A stretch of 64,000 nucleotides of DNA, taken from NCBI RefSeq assembly GCF_003289945.1, contig NZ_QMBP01000003.1, positions 372,001 to 436,000 of the forward strand, written 5' to 3'. Numbering within the stretch: the first letter of the stretch is position 1; each line of letters starts with the position of its first letter. Made by a program: the position numbers and the translations under genes. The DNA is from Mesorhizobium hawassense (GTDB lineage: Bacteria > Pseudomonadota > Alphaproteobacteria > Rhizobiales > Rhizobiaceae). Of the stretch, positions 22,599 to 44,806 are shown piece after piece. The notes beneath the pieces were generated by a model. That model worked only from the letters and a program-made list of their open reading frames with translations. It made no database searches and had not been told where the DNA came from.

Positions 22599-22615
22599 CA
22601 AGGCCTTCACTCGCG

Positions 22616-23680: not shown

Positions 23681-24070
23681 TTCAGCGACCTCAGCCGAAG
23701 GATAGCCCGTGAAGCGATGCTTCACGAGTCTTTCAAAAGGGTCATAGCGGAAAAAGGCGGCGAAAGCAGCCGATTTTTGACCACATGGTCAAAATATCAC
23801 GCTGAGTTGCCGCTCCCGGCGTTGGAGATTGGCCGAAACGCCCATCCCTTCGTCATACTCGGGCTTGACCCGAGTATCCATGCCGCGACCTCTGCCGCAG
23901 AGTGCAACGGTGCAGAATTCTGTAACCCCCGCAACGCCTTAGCGTAACGGCATGGATTCTAGGGTCTGCGCGCGTCGCTCCGCTCCTTGCTCCGCCCTAG
24001 AATGACGAAGCGCGAATGTCGTCGCTAATCTCAGACGCCTCCAACAGAGCTGGCGGGCTGCGACCAGCGT
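23681..24070. repeat. 390-bp gene-free stretch with a dispersed inverted-repeat element (family D)
   Basis: No convincing gene is present. Bases 23848-24010 form an element bounded by CTTCGTCAT and ATGACGAAG, with internal pairs ACTCGGGCTTGACCCGAGT and GGCATGGATTCTAGGG / CCCTAGAAT. The stretch GCGCGCGTCGCTCCGCTCCTT is typical of rhizobial intergenic mosaic elements. Bases 23681-23847 would hold the deoC promoter; TTTTTGACCACATGGTCAAAAAT-like symmetry (TTTGACCACATGGTCAAA, 23774-23791) is a good palindromic operator candidate. Confidence 0.6.
23774..23791. promoter_or_regulatory. palindromic operator candidate upstream of deoC
   Basis: TTTGACCAC-ATGGTCAAA is symmetric: TTTGACCA pairs with TGGTCAAA around CA/AT. 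It lies about 95 bp upstream of the deoC start. TTTGACCAnnTGGTCAAA resembles the sites of DeoR/GntR-class repressors. No regulator gene for it is adjacent. Confidence 0.45.
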
Positions 24071-24898
24071 TCAGCCGACGAAGGCGCGCTCGACGACGAA
24101 GCTGGCCGGATGACTGAGCGAGCCTTCCTGGAAGCCGAGGCTTTCAGCCAGTTCCTTGACGTCCTTCAGCATATGCATCGAGCCGCAGATCATGATGCGG
24201 TCGGTCTCGGGATTGAGCTTGTCGATGCCGAGGTCGGAATAGAACTTGCCCGAGCCGATCAGCGCGGTGATGCGGCCCATGCGCGCCGACTCCTCGCGAG
24301 TGGTCGAGTTGTAAAGCGTGACGCGGCCGCCGGTCAACTCGCCGATCAGCGGGTCGCTCTCCAGCGCCGCAACCAGCTCCTGGCCGTAGGTCAGCTCGGC
24401 ATTGTCGCGGCAGGTGTGGGTCAGGATGACCTGGTCGAACTTTTCATAGGTGTCGGGATCACGCAGCAGGCTGGCGAAGGGCGCGATGCCGGTGCCGGTC
24501 GAGATCATGAACACACGCTTGGCAGGCGTCAGCGCGTCGAGCACCAGCGTGCCGGTCGACTTCTGGCGCATGATGACGGTGTCGCCGACCTGGATCTTCT
24601 GCAGCTCGGACGTGAGCGGGCCGTCCGGCACCTTGATCGAGAAGAATTCAAGCTCCTCGTCCCAGGCGGGGCTGGCGACCGAATAAGCGCGGAAGACCGG
24701 CTTCTCGGCATTGGGCAGGCCGATCATGACGAATTCGCCGGAGCGGAAGCGCAGCGACTGCGGGCGGGTGATGCGGAACGAGAACAGCCGGTCGGTGTAA
24801 TGCTTCACCGACACCACGGTCTCGGCATAGACATTGGCCGGGATCGGGAACTGCAGCGGCTTTACGCCGGCGACGTTCAAGGCGGATGTCGTGTTCAT
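24071..24898 (-). CDS. fpr: ferredoxin-NADP+ reductase
   Basis: An FAD enzyme of 275 aa that passes electrons between NADPH and ferredoxin or flavodoxin. FAD motifs are FRAYSVAS (R-x-Y-S) and the C-terminal FVVERAFVG, the alphaproteobacterial subclass ending. NADP motifs are MISTGTGIAPFASLL and LTHTCRDNAELTYG, then ICGSMHMLKD. The ATG at 24898 (MNTTSALN) was preferred over 24940 because the homologous N-terminus starts about here. It is divergent from hyuA with a 220-bp gap that carries a GTATAC-centred palindrome, and it could supply reductant to the FeS proteins further along; that link is speculative. Confidence 0.9.
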   Translation of the reverse strand: MNTTSALNVAGVKPLQFPIPANVYAETVVSVKHYTDRLFSFRITRPQSLRFRSGEFVMIGLPNAEKPVFRAYSVASPAWDEELEFFSIKVPDGPLTSELQKIQVGDTVIMRQKSTGTLVLDALTPAKRVFMISTGTGIAPFASLLRDPDTYEKFDQVILTHTCRDNAELTYGQELVAALESDPLIGELTGGRVTLYNSTTREESARMGRITALIGSGKFYSDLGIDKLNPETDRIMICGSMHMLKDVKELAESLGFQEGSLSHPASFVVERAFVG

Positions 24899-25023
24899 CA
24901 AACCCAACTTTCCATGCCAGACGAGACCCGCTGGCGCCAAACTCTCTCCTGCGCGCCCGAACGGTCAGGTCCCGGCGTGCTGCTCACACACTGACAAGCG
25001 GTAAGCTCTTGTGTCGGAAACTT

Positions 25024-25037
25024 ATTAGTATACAAAT
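25024..25037. promoter_or_regulatory. palindromic operator candidate (ATTAGTATACAAAT)
   Basis: A near-perfect inverted repeat centred on GTATAC, 82 bp upstream of hyuA and 126 bp upstream of fpr. It matches the site at 37370-37383 (ATTCGTATGCAAAT) at 12 of 14 positions; both are followed by GAT. The form is typical of FadR-subfamily GntR operators. Confidence 0.55.
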
Positions 25038-25118
25038 GATCTTCAGGTCAAGATGGCGACGTAAAATGCCTTTCCAAACCGAGGCATATCCGTAGTCCTG
25101 CTATTTCGGGTTTCGGCA

Positions 25119-27191
25119 ATGAATGAGAATTTTTCGGCGTCGGCGGGTAGCGTCGTGGCAGGCATCGATGTCGGCGGCACCTTCACCGACCTGCTTCTGA
25201 TCGATGGCAAGGCGGGCGGCAAGGTGCATATCGCCAAGACGCCGACCACCGTCGAAAACCAAGCCTTCGGCGTGGTTTCCGCACTCGGCGCGACCGGCTT
25301 TCCGATCGACGGCATCGACCTCATCGTGCATGGCACCACGACCACCACCAACGCCGTTCTGGAGCGGCGTCTGGCCAGAACCGGCATGATCACCACGCGC
25401 GGTTTTCGCGACGTGATCGAGCTTGGACGGCGCACGCGGCCACAGGCCTATGGCATGACGGGCACCTTCGTGCCGGTCATCCCGCGGGATCTCAGGCTCG
25501 AAGTGTCGGAACGGGTCGAGGCCTCCGGCGCGGTGCGCATTCAACTCGATGAAGCAGAGATGCGCGACGCGGTGAAAAGGCTGCTCGACGCCGGCTGCGA
25601 GTCGTTGGTCATCCACTTCCTGCACTCCTACGCCAACCCCATGCATGAGCGGCGTGCCGCCGAGATCGCGGCGGAGCTTTGGCCGAACGGTCACATCACC
25701 ACCGGGCATGCGTTGCTTTCGGAAGCGCGCGAGTTCGAGCGCGGCGTGACTGCGGCGGTCAACGCCTCGGTGCAGCCGATCCTCGAGCGCTATGTCGAGC
25801 GGCTGCGCAAGGAACTGGCATCCAAAGGCTATGCCCGCGACTTCCTGATCATGAACGGCAATGGCGGCATGATATCGGCGCGCTTCGTCACGCTGGAATC
25901 GGCCAAGACGGTGATGTCCGGGCCGGCTTCCGGCGTGATCGCCGCCGCCTATACCGGAAAGCGCGCCGGCTTCGGCAACCTCGTCACCTACGACATGGGC
26001 GGCACCTCGACCGACGTGGCGCTGATCCGCAACGCCGAGCCCGCGGTGTCGAACGAGATCGAGATCGAATACGCGATGCCGATCCACGTGCCGATGGTGG
26101 CGGTGCACACCGTCGGCGCCGGCGGCGGCTCGATCGCGCGCGTCGATGCGGCCGGGCTGATCCAGATCGGCCCGGAAAGCGCCGGCGCCAATCCCGGCCC
26201 GATCTGCTACGGGCGCGGCGGCAGCGAACCGACCATCACCGACGCCAATCTGGTGCTGGGACGGCTGGCGCCGAAGAAGCTGTTGGCCGTGGACAATCCT
26301 GTTACCGTCGAACGTGTGACCGGCATTTTCGAGGAGAAGATCGGCAAGCGCACCGGGCTCTCGGGCGTCGAAGCGGCTGGCGCGGTGCTGCGGCTCGGCA
26401 ACATGAAGATGGCCGGCGCCATCCGCATGGTGTCGGTCTCGCGCGGCCATGACCCGCGCGATTTCGCGCTGTTTGCCTTTGGCGGCGCCGGGCCGCTGCA
26501 CGCGACGGCGCTCGCCCGCGAGCTCGGCCTGCCCAGGGTGCTGGTGCCGGCACGGCCCGGCATCACCAACGCGCTCGGCTGCGTCGTCGCGGATATGCGG
26601 CATGACTTCGTCAACACAATCAACATGCCGGTCGGGGCGCTCGATGAAGCTTCGCTTCACGAGTTATTGGAACGGCACCGGGACGAAGGCGAGGCGCTGA
26701 TCGCCAAGGAAGCAGTGAAGCCCGACGCGATCCGCGTCACGCATTCCGCCGACATGCAGTTCGTCGGCCAGACGCACATCATCAACGTGCCGCTGCCGTC
26801 GTCCTCGGTTTCACGAGAGACACTGCAGCTTCTGTTCGAAAAAGCCTATTTCGCCCGCTTCAAGGTCGAGCTGCCGGAAATCCGAGCCAACCTCGTCAAC
26901 TTGAACACCTCGGTCACCGGCGTGCGGCCGCAGATCGACCTGTCGCGGCTGATCGATCCCGCCGGGCGCGCGGCAACGCTCGAGGAGGCGCGGCGCGAAA
27001 TCCGGCCGGTCTGGTATCATGGTGCCTGGCACGACACGCCGGTCTATGCGCGCGAAAAACTGCCGCTCGATGCGACAATCGAGGGGCCGGCGATCCTGGA
27101 ACAGATGGACGCCACCACGGTGCTGGAGCCCGGCGACCGGGCGCGATCGGACGCCGACGGCAACATCATCATCGACATCGGCGAGGCTTGA
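25119..27191 (+). CDS. hyuA: hydantoinase/oxoprolinase family protein, subunit A
   Basis: A 690-aa ATP-dependent amidohydrolase subunit of the HyuA family (N-methylhydantoinase A, 5-oxoprolinase, acetone/acetophenone carboxylase). ATP-binding ASKHA motifs are visible: GIDVGGTFTDLLLIDG at residues 11-26, HGTTTTTNAVLERR near 70-83, YDMGGTSTDVALI near 290 and GGAGPLHA near 455. Such enzymes open cyclic imide or lactam rings, or activate carbonyls, together with subunit B. hyuB starts 1 bp after the hyuA stop. The substrate cannot be told from sequence; context with a molybdenum hydroxylase operon sharing an upstream palindrome suggests ring opening of an N-heterocycle. Confidence 0.9.
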   Translation: MNENFSASAGSVVAGIDVGGTFTDLLLIDGKAGGKVHIAKTPTTVENQAFGVVSALGATGFPIDGIDLIVHGTTTTTNAVLERRLARTGMITTRGFRDVIELGRRTRPQAYGMTGTFVPVIPRDLRLEVSERVEASGAVRIQLDEAEMRDAVKRLLDAGCESLVIHFLHSYANPMHERRAAEIAAELWPNGHITTGHALLSEAREFERGVTAAVNASVQPILERYVERLRKELASKGYARDFLIMNGNGGMISARFVTLESAKTVMSGPASGVIAAAYTGKRAGFGNLVTYDMGGTSTDVALIRNAEPAVSNEIEIEYAMPIHVPMVAVHTVGAGGGSIARVDAAGLIQIGPESAGANPGPICYGRGGSEPTITDANLVLGRLAPKKLLAVDNPVTVERVTGIFEEKIGKRTGLSGVEAAGAVLRLGNMKMAGAIRMVSVSRGHDPRDFALFAFGGAGPLHATALARELGLPRVLVPARPGITNALGCVVADMRHDFVNTINMPVGALDEASLHELLERHRDEGEALIAKEAVKPDAIRVTHSADMQFVGQTHIINVPLPSSSVSRETLQLLFEKAYFARFKVELPEIRANLVNLNTSVTGVRPQIDLSRLIDPAGRAATLEEARREIRPVWYHGAWHDTPVYAREKLPLDATIEGPAILEQMDATTVLEPGDRARSDADGNIIIDIGEA

Positions 27192-27192
27192 G

Positions 27193-28890
27193 ATGGCAAA
27201 GCTCGACACGATCACGCTCTCGGTGCTGCAGGCAGCGTTGCAGCAGGTCTGCGACGAGATGGATCTGACCTTTTCCCGCGCGGCCTTTTCGCCGGTCATC
27301 GCCGAAGCCAACGACCGTTCCGACGGCATCTATTCGGCCGTCGACGGCTCGCTGATCGCGCAAGGCAGCCAGGGCCTGCCGGTGTTCGTCGGCGTGATGC
27401 AATATTCGACCAGGACGGTGATCGAGATGATCGCCGACGGCCGTTGCCTGGCGCCTGAACCCGGCGACATCTACATCGTCAACGATCCCTATCTCGGCGG
27501 CACGCATCTGATGGATGTGCGCTTCGTCATGCCGGTCTACCGGGATGGGAAAATCTTTTGCTGGCTCTCCAACACCGGCCACTGGCCCGACATCGGCGGC
27601 TCGGTGCCGGGCGGCTTTTCCGCTTCCGCCACCGCGGTCGAGCAGGAGGGGCTGAGGCTGCCGCCGGTGAAACTGTTCAAGAAGGGTATGCTCGATCCGG
27701 AGATCTACGCCATCATCTGCTCGAACATCCGGGTCGCCGACCAGCGCATCGGCGACATCCGCGCGCAGGCCGCCGCACTCCTGATCGGGCAGGACAGGCT
27801 GAATGAAATCCTGGATCGTTACGGTGACGAAACCGTCGTCGAGGCGATCGCGGAGCTGCGCCGCCGAGCCGCCGAACAGATGCGCGCCTCGATCGCCGTC
27901 ATACCGGACGGCACCTACCGCTCGCAGGCCTTCGTCGATTCCGACGGCGTGGTGAACGAGCCGCTGACCATCAATCTCGCCGTCGAGAAGCAGGGCGACA
28001 CGCTGAGCTTCGACTTTGCCGGCTCATCGAAGCCATGCGCCGGGCCGATGAACAGCGTCTTGGCGACGACCCTGTCGTCCGTCTATCTCGCCATGCGGCA
28101 TATCTTTCCGGAGGTGCCGATCAGCGCCGGGGCCTTCGAGCCGCTGAACGTCAAGCGGCCGGAAGGCACGTTCCTCGACGCCAAATATCCGCGCCCGGTT
28201 TCGGGCTGCGCGGCGGAAGTCTCGCAGCGCATCGCGGAAGCCGTGTTCGCGGCGATGGTGCAGGCGCTGCCGGAAAAGGTGACGGCGGCACCCGCCGGCT
28301 CCAGCGGCAATTTCGCGCTCGGCGGCAACGACCCGGCGCGCGGCCGCGACTATGTCATGTACCAGATCTCCGGCGGTGGCTATGGCGGCAATGCCGGCCA
28401 TGATGGTCTGAGCAATGGCTGCTCGACCATCGGCATTTCGAAGTCGCCGCCGGTCGAGATCATGGAGCAGGCCTTCCCGGTGCTCTACCGGCACTACGCG
28501 CTGCGCGAGGGCTCGGGCGGCGCGGGAAAACATCGCGGCGGTTTCGGGCTTGCCTATGAGGTCGAGATCCTGCGCGGCGACGCCCGCGCCTCCTTCGTCA
28601 TGGATCACGGCCGCTTCGGACCGCAGGGCGCGCTCGGCGGCAAGGACGGCGCGCCGAACAGTGTCACCGTGTTCCGGGGCGGCGAAGCGCATGTGCCGCC
28701 GCATCTTTCCAAGGAGCAGGACATCGCGCTCAAGGCCGGCGATCGCGTGCGAGTGGGCACGCCAGGCGGCGGCGGTTATGGCGACCCGCGCGAACGTGAC
28801 CCGAAGCGGGTCGCCGAAGATATTAGACTTGGCTACTATACACTTGAAGAGGCGAAGGAAATGTTCGGGGTTTCTCTTCCAACGGAATGA
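27193..28890 (+). CDS. hyuB: hydantoinase B/oxoprolinase family protein, subunit B
   Basis: The partner subunit, 565 aa. Characteristic HyuB features are LQQVCDEMDLTFSRAAFSPVIAEANDRSDG at the N-terminus, DIYIVNDPYLGGTHLMDV, the HWPDIGGSVPGGF stretch and the C-terminal GGAGKHRGGFGLAYEVEIL, with a GTPGGGGYGDP end. The ATG at 27193 lies in GAGGCTTGAGATG, 1 bp after the hyuA stop, so the two are translationally linked. The last 30 codons and the downstream DNA are AT-richer than the body. Confidence 0.9.
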   Translation: MAKLDTITLSVLQAALQQVCDEMDLTFSRAAFSPVIAEANDRSDGIYSAVDGSLIAQGSQGLPVFVGVMQYSTRTVIEMIADGRCLAPEPGDIYIVNDPYLGGTHLMDVRFVMPVYRDGKIFCWLSNTGHWPDIGGSVPGGFSASATAVEQEGLRLPPVKLFKKGMLDPEIYAIICSNIRVADQRIGDIRAQAAALLIGQDRLNEILDRYGDETVVEAIAELRRRAAEQMRASIAVIPDGTYRSQAFVDSDGVVNEPLTINLAVEKQGDTLSFDFAGSSKPCAGPMNSVLATTLSSVYLAMRHIFPEVPISAGAFEPLNVKRPEGTFLDAKYPRPVSGCAAEVSQRIAEAVFAAMVQALPEKVTAAPAGSSGNFALGGNDPARGRDYVMYQISGGGYGGNAGHDGLSNGCSTIGISKSPPVEIMEQAFPVLYRHYALREGSGGAGKHRGGFGLAYEVEILRGDARASFVMDHGRFGPQGALGGKDGAPNSVTVFRGGEAHVPPHLSKEQDIALKAGDRVRVGTPGGGGYGDPRERDPKRVAEDIRLGYYTLEEAKEMFGVSLPTE

Positions 28891-29029
28891 CCGACCCATC
28901 GCTTAAAAATATCCACCTGCAATAGGATTTCACTGATACTTCGATCCGCCTAAAACACCACCGGTCCTTATAATTATATATTAATACCACAACTATAGAG
29001 AAATCCCGGCGGCGTGAGGGGTGACGTTG
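28891..29029. other. AT-rich intergenic segment
   Basis: A 139-bp gap whose middle (28965-28995: TTATAATTATATATTAATA) is much more AT-rich than the surroundings. A TATAAT hexamer at 28969-28974 could be a -10 element, but no good -35 lies 16-18 bp upstream. It may supply a promoter for the PAP2 gene. Confidence 0.3.
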
Positions 29030-30133
29030 GTGGGACTGCAGGACGGTGTAGCTGCGGATGCTGGTTTTTCGCGCCAGCCTCAGGGCGATCTCAGCCAAAC
29101 GACGGACGACAGAAAAGTCGCCTATGTCTCGCGCAAGCTGCTGCTGCTCTGTCTGATCTATATCGCCTTAGCGGCCCTGTTCTGGCCGTCGGTATACTGG
29201 CGGGTGACGCTGCTGTATGTGTTCCAGCTCATCATGTGGGGGCCGTTCTCCTGCCTCGCCGTGATCGTACCCGCGGCTGTGATCGTTTCACCAAGAGCGC
29301 CCATAGGCTTCATCAAGACTTCGCTTCGATCGAACGGATTGCGAGCGGCGCTCGTCGTGACGGTTTTCGTCCTGTCGCTGAGCGCCTTCACGACCTACAA
29401 GGTCAACATACCGGGCATAATGCCCTTTTATAGCGACAAGGCTTTGGCGGACATCGGCGAATTCCTGCATGGGCAGGCGCCATGGCGAATCGCGCATGCC
29501 TTCGATTCCGACACATTGGCAATGCTGGTAGCACTGACCTACTCCAAGGTCTGGTTCGTCGAATGGTTTGGCATGGTGTTTTTCGCGGCGCTCTTCGCCA
29601 ACCAGCTCGTGCATCTACGTTATCTTACGGCTCTCGCATTCGTGACGATGGCGGTCGGGACATTCCTGGCGACACTATTCTCCTCCGTTGGCCCGATTTT
29701 TTACGATCAGTTTTTAGGCGGTCACCGCTATGTCGAACTTCTGGAAATACTGAAACGGCGGCCATCCAACGAGCATGTGCTGCTTTATTCCGACTATCTC
29801 CTCGGCAGCTACCAGGCCAACAGGCCGGATCTCGGCACCGGGATATCCGCGATGCCCAGCATGCATGTGGCGGTCGCGACATTGAACGCCTTCTACCTGG
29901 CGCGGCTCAGCCGTTGGCTCGGCGCAGCCGGCTGGATGTTCGCGATCTTCATTCTGTTCGGTTCGATCTATACCGGCTGGCACTATGCCGTTGACAGTTA
30001 CATAGCGATGTTGGTTGTGACCGTGATCTGGCGGCGTACCGCAGCCATCTTCGATGGACTACCCAGAGTTCCCAACCCGACGGCGGGTGCGCTGCACCCC
30101 TCGCCGGCGGCGCTGGCAGCCAACCCTGCCTAA
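29030..30133 (+). CDS. PAP2-family membrane phosphatase (inositolphosphotransferase-like)
   Basis: A polytopic membrane protein of about 367 aa with roughly seven hydrophobic segments. The C-terminal part carries PAP2 motifs: SAMPSMHVAVATL (PSxH, first catalytic His) and GWHYAVDSYIAM (HxxxD, second His). The N-terminal half, with LSAFTTYKVNIPGIMPFYSD, resembles the inositol-phosphorylceramide synthase-like branch (PAP2_3), so it may act on phospholipid head groups. The GTG at 29030 has GAGGGG 8 nt upstream; GTG 29021 is the alternative. Codon usage is somewhat less GC-biased than its neighbours, and nothing links it to the flanking catabolic genes. Confidence 0.78.
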   Translation: MGLQDGVAADAGFSRQPQGDLSQTTDDRKVAYVSRKLLLLCLIYIALAALFWPSVYWRVTLLYVFQLIMWGPFSCLAVIVPAAVIVSPRAPIGFIKTSLRSNGLRAALVVTVFVLSLSAFTTYKVNIPGIMPFYSDKALADIGEFLHGQAPWRIAHAFDSDTLAMLVALTYSKVWFVEWFGMVFFAALFANQLVHLRYLTALAFVTMAVGTFLATLFSSVGPIFYDQFLGGHRYVELLEILKRRPSNEHVLLYSDYLLGSYQANRPDLGTGISAMPSMHVAVATLNAFYLARLSRWLGAAGWMFAIFILFGSIYTGWHYAVDSYIAMLVVTVIWRRTAAIFDGLPRVPNPTAGALHPSPAALAANPA

Positions 30134-30203
30134 AAGGGCTCAGGACGACCAAACTTGGCCGTCTTACTGCCCGAAAACCATCCGGCATTCTTTCCTGGTT
30201 CGC

Positions 30204-30665
30204 TCAGGCAAGCTTCGCCAGCAGCCGCAAAAAGGTCGCGGCTTCCTTGGCCGTCAGTGGTGCCAGCGTTTCCTCGGTGATGGTGCGGGCGAGCGGGATC
30301 AGCCGCTCGATTGCCTCGCGGCCTTCCGGCGTCAGATTGACGAGCAGGCGCCTTTTGTCGACCTCGTGCTTAGAGACCTCGACCAGGCCCCGCGCCTTCA
30401 GCCGGTCGATGACGCCCTTCACGGTGGCGGCATCCATGGCGATCAGCGTGCCGAGTTGGTTCTGCGAGGTTTCGCCGATATCGTAGAGCTTGGCGAGAGC
30501 CGCGAATTGCGGCGGCGTCAGGTCGGCGATATGCGAGGCAAAGAGCGAGACATGGCGCTGATGCGCCTTGCGCAGGATGAAGCCGACCTGATCCTGCAAA
30601 TGGTAGTTGTTCTCGTCGCCGTCCTCGGCCTCGACCAGCCGCAGCAGATTGTCCTCGCCGCTCAT
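30204..30665 (-). CDS. MarR-family transcriptional regulator
   Basis: A 153-aa MarR regulator: helical N-terminus (YHLQDQVGFILRKAHQRH), winged HTH LTPPQFAALAKLYDIGETSQNQLGTLIAMDAATVKGVIDRLKARGLVE, and wing with D-x-R (HEVDKRRLLVNLTPEG). The ATG at 30665 overlaps the stop of the DUF1185 gene by 4 bp (ATGA); a longer frame upstream is only that gene's shadow. It is the last gene of the molybdenum-hydroxylase operon, a natural place for its feedback regulator. In Pseudomonas the nicotinate genes are controlled by the MarR protein NicR, so a heterocycle ligand is conceivable. Confidence 0.87.
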   Translation of the reverse strand: MSGEDNLLRLVEAEDGDENNYHLQDQVGFILRKAHQRHVSLFASHIADLTPPQFAALAKLYDIGETSQNQLGTLIAMDAATVKGVIDRLKARGLVEVSKHEVDKRRLLVNLTPEGREAIERLIPLARTITEETLAPLTAKEAATFLRLLAKLA

Positions 30666-31246
30666 CTCAGGCCGTCCCACGCCTTGATGTCCGCGGCCGC
30701 CAGGCCGCCCATGCGGTTGTGGACGCGCGGGCCGCAGGTCATGGCGAGGCAGAACAGGATTTCGTCGGGACGCGGGCCGTCGCTGATGCCGACCTCCATG
30801 GCGTCGAAATGGCTGCGCACATAGGCGGCGTTGATGTGGCCGAGCGGCACATCGAGCCGCGAGCCGAAAGCGCCGACCTTCTTGGCCGACGGCACGATGG
30901 CCTTGGCGTCGCCGAGCCGCTCGCGCATGGCGTAGCCGCCGGGCACATGCCACAGCGCGCCATGCTCAAGCTCACCCGCGGAACCGACGATGGCGCCCTT
31001 GCCGTAGCCGTCGATCTTCTTGACGTCGCCGCCGAGCGCCGCGATCAGCCTGTCGGAAAGCAGAAGCCCGAGCGGCTTCAAATCTTCCATCGCGCTCTGC
31101 AGATCCTCGAAATAGCGGCCGGCGAAGGGGTTCTTGACCACGGCGAGCGCGGCGGCGCGCAGGCGTGGCTTTTTCGCCACGGGGCCGCCGTCATGGAAAA
31201 TCTCCTCGGTCAGGACCGCGACCTTGCGGATCGGAAAGTCAGGCAT
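30662..31246 (-). CDS. DUF1185 (amino acid synthesis) family protein
   Basis: A 194-aa conserved protein of the PF06684 'amino acid synthesis' family, whose biochemical role is not established. The sequence shows IRKVAVLTEEIFHDGGP at the start, NPFAGRYFEDL, GKGAIVGSAGELEHGA, HVPGGYAMRE and a C-terminal FCLAMTCGPRVHNRMGGL. The ATG at 31246 follows AAGGAAACTGCCC and overlaps the UPF0280 stop by 8 bp. Always-together genes in an overlapping operon suggest a role in maturation or turnover of the hydroxylase/reductase pathway rather than in amino-acid biosynthesis; this is inference. Confidence 0.82.
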   Translation of the reverse strand: MPDFPIRKVAVLTEEIFHDGGPVAKKPRLRAAALAVVKNPFAGRYFEDLQSAMEDLKPLGLLLSDRLIAALGGDVKKIDGYGKGAIVGSAGELEHGALWHVPGGYAMRERLGDAKAIVPSAKKVGAFGSRLDVPLGHINAAYVRSHFDAMEVGISDGPRPDEILFCLAMTCGPRVHNRMGGLAAADIKAWDGLR

Positions 31247-32126
31247 GGGCAGTTTCCTTCGCTTGATGCTTGTTGGGCGCGGCGAGCGCCACGGAACCAC
31301 TGATGCGGGTTTCACCCGCCAGAAACAGCGCCGAGGCGGCGATCAGGCCGCGCCGGCGAAAATCTTCGGCGACCGCGAGGCCCTTGTCCAGCGCCCGGGC
31401 AACCTCGACCGGCGAAAGCGCGCCGACGCTTTGCGTCACCATCTGCTCGCCGAGATCGCTATCGGGCGCCAGGTCGCGCGCCGCAACGCGCGTGATGGCA
31501 GGGTGACCGGGCAGGTCGACCGCGTTGGCAATGAGCGTTGCCGCCGCGTCGGCCTCGGCGCCGGTCGGCGCCAGAACGGTGACGGCGTCGGCGACGCCTA
31601 AGGAAAACGACCGGCCCCGCCAGCCGCTGGTGGCAATGCCACGCACGCCATCCTCGGCGCGTATGGTGACACGGTCGGCCATGCCGTGGCCGGTGCCGGC
31701 AATGGCCGATGTCATCGACTGGCCCTTGCCGAGATGAAGCGCGCAGTCGCCGCCATTGTTGACATAGGCGCGATCGAGCCGGCGGCCGGCGAGCAGGGCG
31801 TCGAGAATCTCGTCGGCTACCGAGCCGGCAACGGCGGCCATCGGGGTGATGAAACATTCCGCCAACCGCATGACGGCCGCCTCCATGCGGCGCGCCGTCG
31901 GGCCCGCGAAATCGCGCGGCGCCAGGAAGAAGGCCGGGAGGCGCAATTCCGGAAGCTCTTCGACCAGTTCGATCAGGATCGTCTGGAAACGCGTGACAGC
32001 CTGCTCGTAGGCGGGGCGGCATTCATCCGCGGAGCCAAACGCCTCGACGATAAGGTCGATCGGCCCATGGTTGAGATGGAGCCGCCTGCCGTCGGGCAGC
32101 CAATGCGCCTGCGGGCCGTTCATCAT
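31239..32126 (-). CDS. UPF0280 family protein (ApbE superfamily)
   Basis: A 295-aa protein of the UPF0280/COG2122 group, distantly related to the flavin transferase ApbE. Landmarks are the N-terminal LHLNHGPIDLIVEAFG, AAVAGSVADEILDALL, AYVNNGGDCALHL (the ApbE-like NxGGD motif) and GIATSGWRGRSFSLGVADAVTVLA (the ApbE-like TSG segment). ApbE proteins attach FMN covalently to partner enzymes, so a flavin-maturation role for the adjacent reductase is an attractive but untested idea. It overlaps the upstream reductase gene by 4 bp. Confidence 0.82.
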   Translation of the reverse strand: MMNGPQAHWLPDGRRLHLNHGPIDLIVEAFGSADECRPAYEQAVTRFQTILIELVEELPELRLPAFFLAPRDFAGPTARRMEAAVMRLAECFITPMAAVAGSVADEILDALLAGRRLDRAYVNNGGDCALHLGKGQSMTSAIAGTGHGMADRVTIRAEDGVRGIATSGWRGRSFSLGVADAVTVLAPTGAEADAAATLIANAVDLPGHPAITRVAARDLAPDSDLGEQMVTQSVGALSPVEVARALDKGLAVAEDFRRRGLIAASALFLAGETRISGSVALAAPNKHQAKETAHA

Positions 32127-33664
32127 CCGGCCCCGTTCGCCGCCGCCCGCCGCAGTTGCGCCAATGGCGGCCAGGGGTTGTCGACCGGCGCGCCGGTGCT
32201 GCTGCGCGGGTTGAGATACTCGCCGCCCCTGGCGAGGATGTCCTCGACGCCGCGGATCTCGTTTTCATAGCCGCCCAGCCGGACATAGTCGTCGCGGCGC
32301 ATGGTGAATTCGATCGGCGCGACCAGCGCCGGCGTCGGCACATAGCCGAAGGCGCCTTCAGGCACGCGGGTGACGTCGACCATCAGCGTGATGCCGCCGC
32401 CCGGCCAGACATAGACCGGCGCGCCGCCGACCGTCACATAGGTCTTCAGGCCCTGAACCGAGCGGGTGAGGTTGACCGGGTTTTCGGTGACGCCGGCGCG
32501 CAGCGAGCCGCCGGCGCCGCCTATGAACAGCACCGTGCACAGCGCCGGCTCACAATTGTCCTCGATCAGGCCGACGGACTTTTGCAACCGCTCGGGGAAC
32601 GGCCTTTGGACCGGCTTCAGCTCGTCGTCGAGCTCGTAGTAGGCGAACTGCTCGCCGGTGGTCGAAACCATCAGCAGCGACAGGCCCGGACGGGCGCCCT
32701 TCTTGGCGTTCCAGTCGCCCAGGATCGACAGCGGATCGTCGATCCTGGTGCCGCCCCAACCGAGGCCGGGCTCGGACACCTTGAAGTAGCGGCCGGGCGT
32801 CGAACGGCGGCCGATGATCTTTATCCCCGTGTCCTCCCAGCCCAGGACCTTGCCGGCCTGGTGCTCGGAGACGACGCCGGTGATGTGGTCGTCGACCACC
32901 ACCACCTCGTCGACGAGGCCGCGCCATTGCGTGGCGAACATGCCGATGGTGGCCGAGCCGCAGCCGACGCGCATGCGGTGCTCGACCTTGCCGTCGATGA
33001 CCGGCGCCTTGCCGGCCTCGACGACGACCGTCGCGCCGCCGTCGATGGTGAGTTCGACCGGCTTGCGGTTGCACAGATTGAGCAGCGCATCGCAGGTGGC
33101 GCGGCCTTCCTGCTTGGAGCCGCCTGTCAGATGGTGGACACCGCCGAGCGACAGCATCTGCGAACCGTATTCGCCGGTCGTGACATGGCCAATCGCCTCG
33201 CCTTCGGCGCGCACTGTCGCCGTCTCGTCGCCGATATGGCGGTCGGTATCGATCTTCACCTTCACGCCGCAATAGGAGAAGATCCCCTCGGTGACGACGG
33301 TAACGAGGTCGACGCCATCGACTTCCTGGCTGACGATAAAGGGCGCCGGCTTGTAATCCGGATAGGTGGTGCCGGCGCCGATCGCGGTGACGAAACGCCG
33401 GCCGGTGTTGACCAGTTCGCCATTCCAGGCCTCGCCCTCGGCGACGAAGGGCACCACCGTGCCGCCGGTCTCGGCCGCGTGGTCGAGGATGGTCAGCGGG
33501 TCCATGCGCACGATGCGGCCGCCAATATTGCCGTAGCGGTCACAGGCGCCGGTGCGGCCGTCGGCGATGTAGCACATGACCGGACAGGCATCGCAGCGGA
33601 TCTTTTCGGCCACCTGCTTCTCGCCGGGATCGTGGGTTTCGAAACGTTCGGCAAGCTCGCTCAT
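32123..33664 (-). CDS. 6-hydroxynicotinate reductase-like iron-sulfur protein
   Basis: A 513-aa protein of the family annotated after 6-hydroxynicotinate reductase of Eubacterium barkeri, which reduces 6-hydroxynicotinate to 1,4,5,6-tetrahydro-6-oxonicotinate with reduced ferredoxin. The N-terminus has an FeS-type cysteine set, C24-x2-C27-x3-C31 and C41 ([10 protein letters not shown]...GACDRYG). The body includes [53 protein letters not shown] and [17 protein letters not shown]. It overlaps the molybdenum-hydroxylase gene upstream and UPF0280 downstream by 4 bp each. Azorhizobium is known to break down nicotinate through this reduced intermediate, which makes the assignment plausible in a rhizobium, but the substrate here is unproven. 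Confidence 0.75.
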
Positions 33665-36414
33665 CGGCGCGCCTCCTTCTCGCGGATCGCCGCCAGGATG
33701 CGGCTAGGCGTCGCCGGCACCTTGGTGACCAGCACGCCTGTTGCATGGCGGATGGCGTTGAGGATCGCCGGCGCCGTCGGGATCAGCACATGCTCGCCCA
33801 GGCCCTTGGCGCCGAACGGCCCCTCGGGGTCGGGAACTTCGACCAGAATATGCTCGACCGGGGGCACGTCGCCGATGGTGGGGATGAGGTAGTCGTGCAG
33901 GTTCTCGGTACGGCCGGGAATGTATTCCTCCATCAGCGCCATGCCGATGCCCTGCGCGATGCCACCCTCGATCTGGCCTTCGACCAGCACAGGATTGATC
34001 GCCTTGCCGACATCATGCGCGGCGGTGATCTTGAGCAGCTTGACGGTGCCGAGCTTCAAGTCGACCTCGAGCTCGGCGATCTGCGCGCCATAGCCATAGA
34101 CGGCGTAAGGCTTGCCCTGGCCCTTGGCGTCGAGCGGCAGCGTCGGCGGGTCGTAGGTTTCTTTCGCGACAAACACTAGGCCGTCGGCATCGGGCTTCAA
34201 CGCCGCGAGGTCGATGCGCCGCGCCGCGTCGCCTTCGCGGATCGAAAGGCTCGATCCTTCGAGTGCAATGGTCGCCTCGCCGGAGACATTGGCAAAACGC
34301 AGGATTTTCTCGCGCAGCGCTCGGCCAGCCTTCTCCGCCGCCTTGCCGGTGACAAAAGTCTGGCGCGAGGCGGATGTTTTGCCGGCGTCGGGTGTGATGG
34401 CGGTGTCGGCGCTCTTCAGCCGAAATTTGTCCAGCGGCAGGCCGAGCGCGTCGGCGCAGATCTGGGCGATGACGGTGTTGGAGCCTTGGCCGATATCGAC
34501 CGCGCCCTGGTGCAGGACCACCTCGCCGGAAGGAGAGATGCCTACCTTGATGGTCGAGGGATTGGGCAGCGATGTGTTGCCGCAGCCATACCAGCAGGAG
34601 GCAATGCCGACGCCGCGCCTGCTTGCCGTGTTGGTGGCGTTGAAGGCTTCCGCCTCTGCCAGCGCCCGCGCCCAATGCGGCTGGAGCTGTTCCAGGCATT
34701 CGCCAATGCCGACGCCCGTTTCCAGCTGCTGGCCGGTGACCGTCTCGCAGCCGTCGCGCAGGCAGTTCTTAAGACGGAAGTCGAGCCGATCCATGCCGAG
34801 CTTGTCGGCGAGCTCGTCATAAAGCGTCTCCTGCATGATGGTGGCCTGCGGCACGCCGAAGCCGCGGAAGGCGCCGGCGATCGGGCCGTTGGTGTGGATG
34901 GCATAGCCGGTGGCGCGATAGTTCGGCGTGGCGTAAGGGCCGGAGGCGTGCACCGGGACACGATTGGCGACCGTCGGGCCCCAACTGGCATAGGCGCCGG
35001 TGTTGAAGTCGCCCGCGAAGATCATGCCGCTGACGCGGCCCTCGGCATCGGCGCCGATGGTCGCCTTCATCTCGGCGGGGTGGCGTTTGGTGGTCGACAT
35101 CATCGATTCATTGCGGGTGTAGGCGAGCGCTGCCGGCCGCCCCGTCTTCATTGCCACCAGACCGATCAGGGGCTGCAGCGAGACGTCGAGTTTCGAGCCA
35201 AAGCCGCCGCCGGTGGCGGTCGGCACGATGCGCACCTTTTCGACGGCAAGCCCGAGCACCTTGGCCGTGTCGTCGCGGTCCATATAGGGCGCCTGGGTGC
35301 AGGCGACGACGACGAGGGTGTCGCCATCCATATATGCGTAGCCGGCTTCCGGCTCGATATAGGCATGCTCGACAAAGGAGGTCTCGATGATACCTGTCGC
35401 TGTGACGGCTGCGCCGGCAAGCGCGCCCTCGGGATCGCCGCGTTCGACATAGCCTGAGGTCAGCAGGTTCGCCGGGCGTTGACTGTGGATCAGCGCCGCG
35501 CCGTCAGCCTTCGCCTCACGCGGCTGCAGCAGATGAGGCAGTTCCTCCCAGGTAACCGGGAAATCCGTCAGGTCGAGATCGAGGATCGCCTCGCGCTCAC
35601 CCGCCACCAGCGCCACCGCCTCGCCGCGCAGGCGGACAAAACCTTCGGCCAGAGCCGGCTGGTCGGCAAAGGGACCGATGACGCCAAAACAGTTCTTGCC
35701 GGCGATGTCGGCGGCGGTGAAGACGTCGGCGATGCCGGGATGCGCTTTCGTCCAGGCGTCGAGATCGCCGAAGCTGAAACCAGCATGATAATGCGGCGAG
35801 CGGACCACGAGCACCGACAGCGCATCGGCCGGAAAAGAGTCGCCACCGAATTTCTCGCCGCCGGTGACCTTCGGCACGCCGTCGAGGCGAATCGGCGAGG
35901 CGCCGACGGCGTGGCCGGCTTCCGGCAGGCGGAGGTCGACGCCGTTCACGTGCCTCGACGCATGCATGACCGCCGCGACGATCTTGCGATAGCCGGTGCA
36001 GCGGCAGAGCACGCCGCCCAGCGCATCCTGCGTTTCCGCCTCGCTGGGCGTCGGGCTGCGCTCCAGAAGCGCGGTGGCCGCGACCAGCAGGCCGGGCGTG
36101 CAGATGCCGCATTGCGCGGCGCCATGTTCGAGGAAGGAGGCCTGCAAGGCCGAAAGCCGGCCATTGGCGAGGCCTTCGACGGTGGTGACGGAAGCGCCAG
36201 TCACGGAAGCCGCCGGCACAAGGCAGGCGCAGACCGGACTACCATCGACCAGCACGGTGCAGGCGCCGCAATCGCCGGCGTCGCAGCCGACCTTGGTGCC
36301 GGTCAGCCGCAACTCGTCGCGCAACACCTGCGACAGACGCCGAACCGGCGGCACCGAAACGCTGACGGCGGCGCCGTTGACCTCGAAGGCGATTGCGGAG
36401 CGCTCCATGGTCAT
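33661..36414 (-). CDS. xanthine dehydrogenase-family molybdenum hydroxylase, fused [2Fe-2S] and molybdopterin subunits
   Basis: At 917 aa it joins two subunits that are often separate. Residues 1-155 form the small FeS subunit: plant-type cluster C44/C49/C52/C64 ([16 protein letters not shown]) and second cluster C102/C105/C137/C139 ([16 protein letters not shown]). Residues 165-917 form the molybdopterin subunit, with [36 protein letters not shown], and [15 protein letters not shown] supplying the active-site Glu. It hydroxylates an aromatic N-heterocycle or aldehyde next to the ring nitrogen, using water. It overlaps the FAD subunit and the reductase gene by 4 bp. Nicotinate, purine or another azaarene are possible substrates. 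Confidence 0.88.
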
Positions 36415-37268
36415 GCGGCCACCTTGCCTTCGTCCAATCCGGCTGCAGCGCGAACCGCGCGGACGACGATCTCGCGCGCCGCCTGCTCTCGGTATTCGGC
36501 GCTGCCGCGTACATCGGCGATCGGCGACAGTTCATCGATCGGCGTGGTGAGCACCGCATCGACAAGCGCAGGGGTGGCCGGCTGGCCACGCAGAGCCGCC
36601 TCGACGCCGGCGAGGCGACGCGCGACGGCGGAACACGCACCGACAGCAACAGCGGCATCGGCGACCATGCCGTCCTCGATCACGAGCCGCGCCGCCGCCA
36701 TGGCGATCGAGATGACGAGGTAGCGCCGCGCGCCGAGCTTGACGAAGGCCGAGGTACCGACGGCGGAACGCTTCGGGACACGAATGGCGGTGACCATTTC
36801 GCCCGGGTCAAGCGCCGTGCGGCGATTGCCGAGGATGAATTCGCCGAGCGGCAGATGACGTGTGACCTTCGCCGACCGCAGTTCGACATCGGCATCGAGC
36901 GCCAGCAAGGCCGGCACGCCGTCGGCGGCGGGCGAGGCGTTGCAGAGATTGCCAGCAACCGAGGCGACGTTCTGGATCTGGATGGCGCCCACCTCGCGCG
37001 CGGCCGCTTTGAGCGCGTCGAACGCGGCCGGCAGAGGGTGATGAACCATGTCGGTCCACGTCGTGCGGGCGCCGATGCGCCAGTGCCCGTCCGTCTCTTC
37101 GATGCCGCGCAGCGTAGCCAGGCCGTTGATGTCGAGAATGTTGTCGCGGAACGGTTTCGCGCCCTGCGCCGGATAAAAATCCGTGCCGCCGGCGAGAATG
37201 CGCCAGCGGTCCTCGCCGAGCAGAGCGAGCGCCTCGTCGACCATGGTGGGTTTCGCGTAACGGATCAC
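36411..37268 (-). CDS. FAD-binding subunit of xanthine dehydrogenase-family hydroxylase
   Basis: A 285-aa flavin subunit that takes electrons from the FeS clusters. It has the two FAD-binding motifs, [10 protein letters not shown] near residue 25 and [21 protein letters not shown] near 105-125, and the C-terminal CO-dehydrogenase flavoprotein domain ending. The GTG at 37268 follows GGAAGG with 6-nt spacing; an in-frame ATG at 37304 and one at 37358 lack such a site. First gene of the six-gene operon; the palindrome at 37367-37386 lies about 100 bp upstream. Confidence 0.9.
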
Positions 37269-37366
37269 GCTCTGCCTTCCAGAACCTTCCCAGAAACGGA
37301 CCATTCCCCACTTGGCCCCCCAAAGCACCTGGCTTCGGGCTTTCTGCCGGTTTCGCACCGGTCAAA

Positions 37367-37386
37367 ATCATTCGTATGCAAATGAT
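37367..37386. promoter_or_regulatory. 20-bp palindromic operator candidate
   Basis: ATCATT and AATGAT arms (6 bp, perfect) flank a CGTATGCA centre. It lies between the divergent hydroxylase operon (start 37268) and pncA (start 37565). Its core ATTCGTATGCAAAT matches the hyuA/fpr site at 25024-25037 at 12 of 14 positions. Confidence 0.6.
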
Positions 37387-37564
37387 ATCAGGCGAGCCGG
37401 AATTGTCAAAGCAAGAGTTCGTGCCGTCACTGCGCCGCGCCGGCCTGAACGTATTTGTTATAGCTTCGGAGGTTGACGCCGCGGGCCATCTGGTCAAGGT
37501 TCCGTGTCCGGTCGCGTCAGCGGCTTTTGGACGGCTGCCCCAAGCCGAAACGAGAGGGAACCGC

Positions 37565-38179
37565 ATGGCCGAAGAAGCGCTCATCGTCATCGACCTGCAG
37601 AACGATTTTTGCCCCGGCGGCGCACTTGCCGTGGCCGGCGGCGACGAGATCGTGCCGTTGGTCAACGACCTGATCCGGCGCAGCGAGCATGTGATCCTGA
37701 CGCAGGACTGGCACCCCGCCGGACATTCGAGCTTCGCCTCCAGCCATCCGGGCAAGCAGGCCTTCGAGACGATCGAGATGCCTTACGGGCCGCAGACGCT
37801 GTGGCCGGATCACTGCATCCAGGGGAGCCTCGGTTCCGATTTCCATTCCGGGCTTGCCTGGACCAAGGCCGAGTTGGTCATCCGCAAGGGATTCCGCAAC
37901 GCGATCGATTCCTATTCGGCCTTCTTCGAGAACGATCATTCGACGCAAACCGGCCTTGCCGGGTACCTCAAGGAACGCGGCATCGACACCGTCACCCTGG
38001 TCGGTCTCGCCACCGATTTCTGCGTAGCCTTCTCGGCGCTCGACGCCGTGAAGCAGGGTTTCAGGACGACCGTGCGGCTCGATGCCTGCCGCGGCATCGA
38101 CCTCAACGGCTCGGTCGAGGCGATGCTGAAGCGGATGCACGAAGCCGGCGTGACGCTCGAAGACCATTCGGCGGATTGA
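37565..38179 (+). CDS. pncA: nicotinamidase
   Basis: Hydrolyses nicotinamide to nicotinate and ammonia in the pyridine-nucleotide salvage cycle. It has 204 aa, standard length. The cysteine-hydrolase triad is visible as D10 (IDLQNDFCPGG), K108 (VIRKG) and C153 (ATDFCVAF), with metal residues in QDWHPAGH near 47-54. The ATG at 37565 follows GAGAGGGAACCGC, while the longer frame from 37376 begins in the operator and has no SD. It is divergent from the molybdenum-hydroxylase operon, and pncB lies in the same window at 46442, so nicotinate is produced and used nearby. Confidence 0.93.
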   Translation: MAEEALIVIDLQNDFCPGGALAVAGGDEIVPLVNDLIRRSEHVILTQDWHPAGHSSFASSHPGKQAFETIEMPYGPQTLWPDHCIQGSLGSDFHSGLAWTKAELVIRKGFRNAIDSYSAFFENDHSTQTGLAGYLKERGIDTVTLVGLATDFCVAFSALDAVKQGFRTTVRLDACRGIDLNGSVEAMLKRMHEAGVTLEDHSAD

Positions 38180-39857: not shown

Positions 39858-40563
39858 TCAGCCCACACCAACATACCTTCGCACCGCCGACGGGTCCGCC
39901 CGCAGTGCTTCGACATCGACCGTCTCGCGGTTGCGGCCGTTCTCGATGAAGCAAACCCTATCCGCGACCGAGAGCACGGCGTCGACACGCTGCTCGACCA
40001 GGATGGTCGAGACGCCGAGCTCGCGCAGCTTCGTCACCGTCTCGCGGATTTTCGCGATCATCGAGGGCATCAGCCCTTCGGTCGGTTCGTCGAGCAACAG
40101 CACTTGCGGTTCCAGACAGAGCGCACGCGCCATGGCCAGCATCTGCTGCTCGCCGCCGGACAGCGTGCCCGAACGCTGCTTCAATCGCTGACGCAGCAGC
40201 GGGAAGAGGTCCAGCACGTTTTCCCGCACGGCTTTGCCCTTGCCGCGGGCCATCAGGCCGATCTCGATGTTTTCCGCCACGCTCATTTCGGCGAACAGCC
40301 GCCGGCCCTGCGGTACGTATGCGACGCCGGCCTTCGGCACGTCATGCGCGGCGAGCCCGGTCAGTTCCTTGCCATCCAATTTGATCGAGCCGGCTGCTGC
40401 CGGGACCAGGCCCATGATCGCCATCAGCGTCGTCGTCTTGCCGGCGCCGTTGCGGCCAAACAGGCACAGCACCTCCCCTTTGTTCAGGACGAGGTCGAGG
40501 CCGTGAAGCACCTGGACCTCGCCGTAGAAGCAGTCGAGTCCGAAAATGGCGAGCAATCCCGTG

Positions 40564-40571
<8 letters not shown>
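39858..40571 (-). CDS. livF: branched-chain amino acid-type ABC transporter ATP-binding protein LivF
   Basis: A 237-aa ATPase of the LivF branch: short, with Walker A GRNGAGKTT, Q-loop YVPQGRRLFAEMSVAENI, signature LSGGEQQMLAMARAL and Walker B VLLLDEPTEGL followed by the H-loop region STILVEQRVD. It overlaps livG by 8 bp and is the last gene of a minus-strand liv operon. Such transporters also import amides, urea and aromatic or heterocyclic acids, so the name reflects family and not substrate. Confidence 0.93.
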
Positions 40572-41288
<717 letters not shown>

Positions 41289-41292
<4 letters not shown>

Positions 41293-42251
41293 GGCAGCCA
41301 CCCCAGCCAGCGTTGGCGGATGCTGCCCAGAATGCCCTTCGGGAAGAACAGCACCAGCAGTATGAGCGCGACGCCGACGATCAGCAGATAAGCGGAGGTG
41401 AAGCCGCTGGTGATGTCGGTGACATAGTACATGAACAGCGTGCCGACGAGCGGCCCGAGCGTCGTCGCGGCGCCCCCAAGCAGCACCCAGAGCAGCGGCA
41501 GGATTGAATACTGCACGCCAGCGAAGCTCGAGCCGACATAGCCGAACAGCAGAGCATAGGCAGCGCCGGACGCCGCGCAGATGGCGCCTGAGGCAACGAC
41601 CGCCGCAAGCTTGTTGGCGCCCGTGTCGTAGCCCAGCATTTTTGTGCGCTCCTCGTTCTCGCGGATGGCGACCAGCACGCGGCCGAAGCGGGAGCGCACA
41701 ATCGCAAGCGTGATGAGCAGCACGATCGCGAACATCGCCAGCGCGCTCATGTAGCGCACGGTGGGATTGGTCAGGTCGAGCGAGGCGCCGCCGATCGAGA
41801 CCACCCTCGCCGCCTGCTGGATGACCAGGCCCTGATCGCCGCCAGTCCAGGCGGCGAAATAGAGGATGAGCAAATAAAAGACCTGCGCGAACATCATCGT
41901 GACGATCAAGAACGCCACACCGGTGGTGCGCAGCGCCAGCAGGCCGATGACCAAGGCCAGCAGCGCGCCGCAGGCGACCCCGGCAATGAAGGCTTCCGGC
42001 ACGCCCCAGCCGAGGTGATGGACGGTCAAGCCCGCACCATAGAGGCCGGCCGAGAAGAACATGGCGTGACCGAGGCTGAGCAGGCCGACATAGCCGAAGA
42101 GCAGATTGTAACCCATGGCGAAGACCGCGAGCGCCATGATGCGGGCGAACAGGCCCTGGTGATAGTCCGGCAGGACGAAGTTCAGCGCGAAGAGAAGCGC
42201 GATGACGCCGATATGCAGGGCGTAGGTCTTTGCCGGCGAAGCATCCCTCAT
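41289..42251 (-). CDS. livM: branched-chain amino acid-type ABC transporter permease LivM
   Basis: A 320-aa permease with about nine to ten membrane segments. The LivM signatures are AVFAMGYNLLFGYVGLLSLGHAMFFSAGLYGAG near residues 40-72 and the cytoplasmic SRFGRVLVAIRENEERTKMLGYD loop that contacts the ATPases. It overlaps livH and livG by 4 bp each. Confidence 0.93.
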
Positions 42252-43129
42252 CGCTGCGTGGTTCCGAACAGGCCCTGCGGCCGGAACACCAGCACCATGG
42301 CGACCACCAGCGTGGCGATGATCTTGGCCAGGGTCGGCGAGAAGAACATCGAGACGATGCCGTCGGAAAGGCCGATCAGGATGGCGGCGACCACGGTGCC
42401 GCGCAGCGAGCCGAGGCCGCCGATGATGACGACGATGAAGGACAGGAGCAGCGGGTCCTGTCCCATCAGGTAATGCGCCTGGCTGATCGGCACGATCAGC
42501 ACCGCGGCGATCGCCGCCAGCATGGCGCCGACGGCGAAGACGCCGGCATAGACGCGCTCGACCGGGATGCCGAAGGCTTGCGCCGTCTCACGGTCATATT
42601 GCGTGGCGCGCATGATCAGGCCGATTTTCGTGCGGGTCAGCACCAGCCAGGTGATCACCAGCAGAATGGCGGAGGCTGCAACGACCGACAGCTTGTAGCC
42701 GGAGTAGCCGAACCACGGCAAAAGGATGCGGTAGCTGAAAGGCGGTTCGACCGGGCGGGCCTCGGGACCATAGAAGGTCAGCGCCAGCTGCTGGATGATG
42801 TAGAGCATGCCGATGGTGGCGACGATGGTGCCTTCCGGATTGTAGTTCAGCCGGCGCAGCACCAGCCGCTCGGCAATCAGCGCGACCAGCCCGACGAGCA
42901 GCGGCGCGATCGCCAGCGCCGCGACGAAGCCGACCGCCGGATGACCGGCGATCGCCGTCGAGATCGCCCAGGCAAGCACCGCGCCCAGCATGAAGAACTC
43001 GCCATGCGCGACGTTGACGACGCGCATGACGCCGAACACCAGCGACAGGCCAAGCGCCGTCAGCGCCAGCACGGCGGAGGTGACAAGACCTTCGAGGGCG
43101 GCGAGGAGGAGATGGGGACCGAAATGCAT
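42248..43129 (-). CDS. livH: branched-chain amino acid-type ABC transporter permease LivH
   Basis: A 293-aa permease with about eight membrane segments. It starts LEGLVTSAVLALTALGLSLVFGVMRVVNVAHGEFFMLGA, the typical LivH N-terminus, and has the TKIGLIMRATQYDRETAQAFGI cytoplasmic loop. I chose the ATG at 43129 (MHFGPHLLL) because the frame upstream runs through the family-B repeat at 43152-43320. It overlaps livM by 4 bp. The repeat separates it from livK. Confidence 0.92.
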   Translation of the reverse strand: MHFGPHLLLAALEGLVTSAVLALTALGLSLVFGVMRVVNVAHGEFFMLGAVLAWAISTAIAGHPAVGFVAALAIAPLLVGLVALIAERLVLRRLNYNPEGTIVATIGMLYIIQQLALTFYGPEARPVEPPFSYRILLPWFGYSGYKLSVVAASAILLVITWLVLTRTKIGLIMRATQYDRETAQAFGIPVERVYAGVFAVGAMLAAIAAVLIVPISQAHYLMGQDPLLLSFIVVIIGGLGSLRGTVVAAILIGLSDGIVSMFFSPTLAKIIATLVVAMVLVFRPQGLFGTTQR

Positions 43130-43151
43130 GGGGCTAGGCACCGAGGGATGC

Positions 43152-43320
43152 GCGAGGCACCCCCCTCTGCCCTGCCGGGCATATCCCCCGCAAGGGGGAA
43201 GATTGGATGTCTCCGCAGGCTTCGCCAATCGCCAAAGTCGCCAGATAGGCGCCGCCGCGTAAACTGCTGATCTCCCCCCTTGCGGGGGAGATGGCCGGCA
43301 GGCCAGAGGAGGGTGCCTTG
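43152..43320. repeat. dispersed intergenic repeat, family B (diverged copy)
   Basis: Left end CTGCCCTGCCGGGCATATCCCCC, right end GGGGGAGATGGCCGGCAGGCC, with the internal TTCGCCAATCGCCA found also in the 22413-22598 copy. It lies between livK and livH within the presumed operon, and its hairpins may lower expression of the downstream permease genes relative to livK. Confidence 0.75.
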
Positions 43321-43348
43321 GCACTCACGTTTGCAGGAGCAGCTAAAC

Positions 43349-44653: not shown

Positions 44654-44806
44654 GTCGGTTCCCCTGTTTTTTCAGTTTTGACCAGCGATAAGGCGGCTCG
44701 ATCCCCCTCGATCGGAGGATGCGAAAATTGGATGTGTACAAACTAAATCACCAAAGATTGGGCTTGGCAAGCAAGCTTTACCCGACGGCATCGGAGGCGG
44801 CCCGTG

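Follow-up and report, generated by a model that had tools for sequence, protein, structure and literature searches.

MarR-family proteins govern nicotinate genes in Bordetella, where the regulator is BpsR (PDB 6PCO/6PCP), and in Pseudomonas putida, where it is the repressor NicR; in BpsR, Tyr15, His23, Arg26 and His32 contact 6-hydroxynicotinate, which is a negative regulator of BpsR DNA binding (passages of PMC6837509). In Azorhizobium caulinodans, strain SG-6C and Eubacterium barkeri, a nicotinate cluster combines the genes that act first on nicotinate with those for 6-hydroxynicotinate reductase and for a putative ABC (ATP-binding cassette) transporter of nicotinate; it is conserved in Azorhizobium and others (parts of PMC3511419). 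Those parts hold nothing on regulation of the cluster, and the literature searched, mostly as titles and passages, yielded no regulator for the reductive nicotinate route.

Here we describe a homologous cluster in Mesorhizobium hawassense, within 64,000 nucleotides of contig NZ_QMBP01000003.1 (positions 372,001 to 436,000; assembly GCF_003289945.1), hereafter the window. It differs from the clusters above in that ring opening is assigned to HyuAB, a hydantoinase A/B pair, in place of enamidase. Two nearly identical palindromes lie in it, each between divergent genes: fpr/hyuA for the first, and the FAD subunit of a molybdenum hydroxylase/pncA for the second. They recur at these positions among relatives and co-occur with the pathway genes and with a MarR gene; very probably, as judged from sequence comparison, they are operators of one regulon bound by the cluster's own MarR. 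This provides a candidate regulator, operator and gene list for the third bacterial route of nicotinate breakdown. The sites, and the promoter that overlaps one of them, are as follows.

25024..25037, no strand: operator 1, ATTAGTATACAAAT, between divergent fpr and hyuAB
37367..37386, no strand: operator 2, 20-bp dyad ATCATTCGTATGCAAATGAT, with the 14-mer ATTCGTATGCAAAT at 37370-37383
44730..44743, no strand: weak operator 3, GGATGTGTACAAAC, ~80 bp before the liv binding-protein gene (livBP)
37382..37409, minus strand: sigma-70-type promoter of the dehydrogenase operon, TTGACA-N16-TATCAT, 11/12 matches in the scan, with its -10 box inside the operator 2 dyad

The original prediction had paired the two 14-mers as inverted repeats in divergent promoter regions, and this description holds: ATTAGTATACAAAT and ATTCGTATGCAAAT are identical at 12/14 positions, GAT directly follows each, and by eye they are self-complementary at 12/14 and 10/14 positions, respectively. 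Among relatives the dyad is longer, 18-20 bp with the form TCATTYGTATRCAAATGA, and the GAT after both 14-mers is its right arm. At no more than 2 mismatches the window gives four matches, namely the two sites on both strands and no others; shuffled controls averaged 0.66 and reached four in 2/100 shuffles. A scoring matrix made from relatives only, with the window excluded, ranked 25024 (31.6) and 37370 (30.5) far above 44730 (9.15) and the next candidate (1.2). The best scores of 20 random windows reached a maximum of 22.1 and were at least 9.15 in 7/20, so that score alone sets apart 25024 and 37370, not 44730. In the 7.33-Mb genome, exact ATTNGTATNCAAAT occurs in three places, the two window sites and C8:120703; with one mismatch, the genome-wide scan that had been proposed as a check gave 13 strand matches vs 3 for the reversed control.

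The geometry at 37370 is that of a repressor site, because the dyad covers the -10 box, and both promoter boxes are kept in the family consensus (19 rows with enough flank). Around the 25024 site, conserved CTTGAC and CAAG boxes lie on both dyad flanks (35 rows), and a promoter scan of 24880-25180 returned no consensus promoter.

Conservation was assessed in a family set of 199 genomes. Hnr, the 6-hydroxynicotinate reductase homologue, was found in 76 of them, and 74 loci were taken from these; the locus of G002 was not included, and the window stands for G000. In the promoter counts, loci without the gene or without enough upstream DNA were left out, and the window forms one row each. The comparison of related promoters, also proposed at the outset, found the motif at no more than one mismatch in 44 of the 62 promoters of the FAD subunit and in 30 of the 41 of fpr (56 and 33, respectively, at no more than two), and in 2/1240 and 2/820 dinucleotide shuffles of the two sets at the one-mismatch limit. 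The exact 16-mer ATTHGTATRCAAAYRA is present in 51/199 family genomes, 50 of them Hnr-positive, and its reversed control in 0/199; the fifty-first genome (G089, in many contigs) has a site at each of its FAD and fpr/hyuA promoters, plus MarR. The site is kept at both promoters even in G105, where ~300 kb separates them, and in G049, where each is on a contig of its own. The recurrence of both sites at these two promoters in the family gives the claim of one regulon strong support.

The weaker GTGTAC site that had been noted before livBP corresponds to 44730. A site scoring ~9.1 or more lies 55-95 bp before livBP in 15/20 relatives whose liv genes are near the cluster, and is absent in the other five. 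In the first locus set strong sites stand before livBP in L114, L117 and L064, with 12/18 loci below 0 (or unlike); among the named loci, sites scoring at least 15 precede livBP in 6/29 and hyuA in 10/18. The liv site thus appears conserved near the window's lineage and patchy beyond, and 44730 would be a conserved degenerate copy of the operator, as its conservation, not its score, suggests.

The MarR itself scores 47.5 bits against PF01047, above the cutoff of 24.6. It is present in 74/76 Hnr genomes vs 9/123 others (G089 among the nine), stands directly behind the operon genes in 47/96 loci, and in many distant clusters lies next to the FAD gene or diverges from it. Co-occurrence was counted between an operator at the FAD promoter and a local MarR in loci of at least 17 kb, as both / MarR only / operator only / neither: 50/2/0/0 in the family set, 20/2/4/7 in the class set and 34/3/1/11 in the named set. 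A genome-wide search for MarR, which covered 16 genomes including those of the 11 class loci with no local MarR, changed the class counts to 24/3/0/6; all four loci with an operator and no local MarR have MarR elsewhere in the genome, and 6/7 loci with neither have no MarR in the genome at E 1e-22. Where MarR does not lie behind the operon genes, 19/49 have a strong site within 300 bp, vs 2.1% of 3000 random stretches; in many of the 19 a FAD gene diverges from the same site. Of the other open frames in 114 loci, the 28 largest clusters contained a single regulator recognisable by eye, of LacI type, in 6 loci. MarR is favoured by its linkage to the cluster, by its co-occurrence with it, and because its presence or absence largely matches that of the operator.

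Several observations weigh against this reading. The exact 16-mer is missing from 26/76 Hnr genomes, many with looser sites, and it was picked after the family sites were known, so that its independent part is its absence from other genomes. The matrix and pattern were likewise drawn from the very family used for the counts. What stands independently of this is the empty control, the lack of the pattern in Hnr-negative genomes, and the findings at class-level loci and at liv and enamidase promoters. The P values of 2e-26 (16-mer vs Hnr) and 5e-16 (HyuB vs enamidase) are descriptive, since genomes share ancestry and the Fisher values overstate independence. By the matrix, L106, L108, L137, L144, L218, L223 and L247 have MarR and no site (L106 and L108 show one at 1 and 2 mismatches, respectively, by pattern count), G239 has MarR in the genome and no site, L219 has a site without a local MarR, and MarR genes behind the operon genes have a site of their own in 0/47 cases. 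A simple extension of the regulon is disfavoured by the class-level hyuA promoters, with a site in 1/14; in some class-level loci hyuAB lies downstream of the Hnr operon in the same direction. No site above 3.8 was found within 1.5 kb of 8 close BpsR relatives, in a search for which BpsR's own operator is absent from the passages of its source and the nic promoters may lie farther off; among the other 21 loci of that search, L265, L268 and L272 have a site above 20 that lies over 500 bases away from the MarR match. Finally, we infer binding, repression, ligand and the strain's pathway from sequence.

Hnr is kept, and both a local MarR and an operator at the FAD promoter are absent, in the Sedimentitalea, Roseovarius, Rhodobacter-assigned, Silicimonas and Maritimibacter clusters L196, L197, L201, L205, L210, L214 and L240. 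In the Roseovarius cluster L197, no regulator was recognised among the 10/37 open frames examined.

The best solved relative of the window MarR is 2NNN, a probable MarR-family regulator (E 2.4e-35), with BpsR next. Three of the four BpsR contacts to 6-hydroxynicotinate are kept in the window MarR; in 96 orthologues, the window included, Tyr15 and Arg26 are each found in 96/96 and His32 in 84/96. The difference from BpsR, and a point against a shared ligand, is the His23 position, which is Phe in 70, Tyr in 16 and His in 10 orthologues. The most likely releasing ligand, somewhat more probable than not, would be 6-hydroxynicotinate, as for BpsR. The nic cluster that BpsR governs belongs to a maleamate-type and not the reductive route. 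The HosA operator, which we took to be similar, was not confirmed in the literature and was not used. NadQ was rejected, its consensus in passages of PMC5343134 being unlike the window operator, and passages of PMC7057948 and PMC10269826 gave no operator.

The proposed mechanism would operate on the route nicotinate to 6-hydroxynicotinate to tetrahydro-6-oxonicotinate, followed by ring opening. A MarR dimer would bind the dyad; at 37367-37386 it would cover the -10 box and block the dehydrogenase/reductase operon, at 25024 the dyad would lie across the fpr and hyuA promoters, and at 44730 the degenerate copy may tune the importer. A pyridine of the pathway would then release MarR from the DNA.

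From the shape of the sites, the original prediction had seen a fit to a FadR-type GntR protein, and with a MarR as the only regulator nearby it had named none. A rival reading is that a FadR/FCD-type GntR protein encoded elsewhere binds the palindromes. The shape argument was reasonable in itself: we take the dyad to resemble FCD operators, and a one-mismatch match, AATTGTATACAAAT (L004, G000:C1:497502-497515), stands before an FCD GntR gene with a solute-binding-protein-like gene beside it. The window, moreover, contains an FCD-domain GntR gene at a distance of 20 kb from operator 1 (4777-5577, plus strand), as well as a gene for a LysR protein (47996-48979), so MarR is the sole regulator found in the cluster but not the sole one in the window. 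FCD hits, however, were obtained in 4/115 loci, the window included (one FCD query, E 1e-5), and operator presence tracks the MarR gene; an FCD GntR is accordingly improbable here and was rejected as the regulator, MarR being the most likely one. FCD proteins are possible for sites such as C1:497502, and nearly identical palindromes may serve two regulator families within a single genome. It is far less credible still that the two sites resemble each other by chance, or that they are a general promoter element with no shared regulator. They are short AT-rich palindromes picked by eye from 64 kb, but they are conserved at both promoters and are linked to one pathway, and the control pattern is absent from the family.

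Repression by MarR with release by 6-hydroxynicotinate has its own competitors: MarR may be mainly an activator, or may sense nicotinate, tetrahydro-6-oxonicotinate or another compound. The lack of a consensus promoter around 25024 leaves room for another geometry there, and the loss of His23 speaks for another ligand; the position of operator 2 over the -10 box, in contrast, is that of a repressor, and the remaining three pocket residues are kept. We regard this alternative as unlikely, if worth retaining beside 6-hydroxynicotinate-relieved repression.

The genes of the cluster are listed below.

36411..37358, minus strand: FAD subunit of a molybdenum hydroxylase that is probably nicotinate dehydrogenase; translation probably starts later than the first GTG
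33661..36414, minus strand: molybdopterin/[2Fe-2S] subunit of the same hydroxylase
32123..33664, minus strand: Hnr, 6-hydroxynicotinate reductase homologue (P0001), with a CxxCPxxC motif; assigned by cluster
31239..32126, minus strand: PRK04334-type conserved protein of the operon
30662..31246, minus strand: AA_synth (PF06684) conserved protein of the operon
30204..30665, minus strand: MarR-family regulator encoded at the end of the operon and proposed to bind the three operators as a repressor
24071..24898, minus strand: fpr, ferredoxin-NADP reductase homologue
25119..27191, plus strand: hyuA, hydantoinase A/oxoprolinase/caprolactamase family
27196..28890, plus strand: hyuB, hydantoinase B family
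37565..38179, plus strand: pncA, isochorismatase-family protein, probably nicotinamidase, opposite the operon
39858..44653, minus strand: operon for a branched-chain-type ABC transporter with two ATPases, two permeases and a binding protein

The operon thus reads, on the minus strand from 37358, FAD subunit, molybdopterin/iron-sulfur subunit, Hnr, PRK04334 protein, AA_synth and MarR. The identification of P0001 as Hnr is drawn from cluster resemblance, not from direct alignment to the E. barkeri enzyme; domains and cluster agree with the reductive pathway, and an enamidase homologue is encoded in sister clusters. Among named Hnr loci, in a comparison that may lack the strain's own record, the nearest are those of Mesorhizobium sp. 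WSM3859 and CU3, both 97% identical. Fpr likely supplies electrons to Hnr, and the transporter at 39858..44653 is a putative nicotinate importer.

The enamidase homologue of the sister clusters matches PDB 2vun (E 5.7e-112); none was found in the window, nor in its own genome at E 1e-80, and HyuAB is present instead. Among 150 clusters of at least 17 kb (family, class and named sets, with some organisms in more than one set), 48 hold HyuB only, 23 enamidase only, 79 neither and 0 both locally. Genome-wide, the 76 Hnr genomes comprise 58 with HyuB, 17 with enamidase, 0 with both and 1 with neither, at limits of at least 75% identity for a HyuB orthologue and at least 65% for enamidase that were set after the identity gaps were seen, and with at most 7 and 9 candidates, respectively, scored per genome. 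The genome with neither, G118, holds a 57% enamidase relative; with the enamidase limit at 54%, 1 genome has both (G051) and 0 have neither. The 123 Hnr-negative genomes yielded a HyuB orthologue in 2 (G089, G116) and an enamidase (at least 65%) in 0.

The operator is also found before the enamidase gene. A site scoring at least 20 lies within 300 bp before it in 11/17 enamidase genomes (G178, G056, G197, G150, G115, G034, G132, G011, G185, G012 and G166), and in several of these the site lies between enamidase and a divergent fpr or marR and may belong to either gene. The remaining six (G156, G074, G004, G087, G066 and G077) have no such site, and neither do 16 of 19 class-level and named enamidase promoters (3 have one), both of which count against a simple extension of the regulon. 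No site precedes the 8 weaker enamidase relatives in Hnr-negative genomes, or those of G118 and G051. The place of hyuA opposite fpr is taken by enamidase in L103 and L108. HyuA has caprolactamase alpha as its nearest named family, with a score below that family's cutoff, and we take the caprolactamase family to be ATP-dependent. We consider it probable that HyuAB is an ATP-dependent lactam hydrolase that opens tetrahydro-6-oxonicotinate and has displaced the unrelated enamidase, with the MarR operator kept or re-acquired before whichever ring-opening gene is present. The assignment of a hydantoinase A/B member as an enamidase replacement is directly testable. Through the proposed common switch, a 'hydantoinase' is connected with a ring-opening step for which other genomes use a different enzyme.

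Elsewhere in the genome, like palindromes occur at C8:120703, C7:6146 and C70:283541, and the nicotinate query proteins had no match in the 7-8 kb around them. The last of these, GTTTGTATGCAAAT (L280 position 3542, score 25.2), lies upstream of a gene and is a possible further member of the regulon. In two genomes of one genus (L287 at 3243, L288 at 3184), a palindrome ATTTGTATACAAA(T/C) adjoins what by eye is a binding-protein/permease-like cluster, where the nicotinate query proteins were unmatched. Within the window, genes for an aldehyde dehydrogenase, matched in two stretches, and for a DeoC-type aldolase come after fpr at 19999-23725 on the minus strand, stay with it in several relatives, and possibly act in later pathway steps. 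A nicotinate phosphoribosyltransferase gene lies just past the transporter (46442-47746, minus strand); since it adjoins the transporter, nicotinate salvage and breakdown are neighbours.

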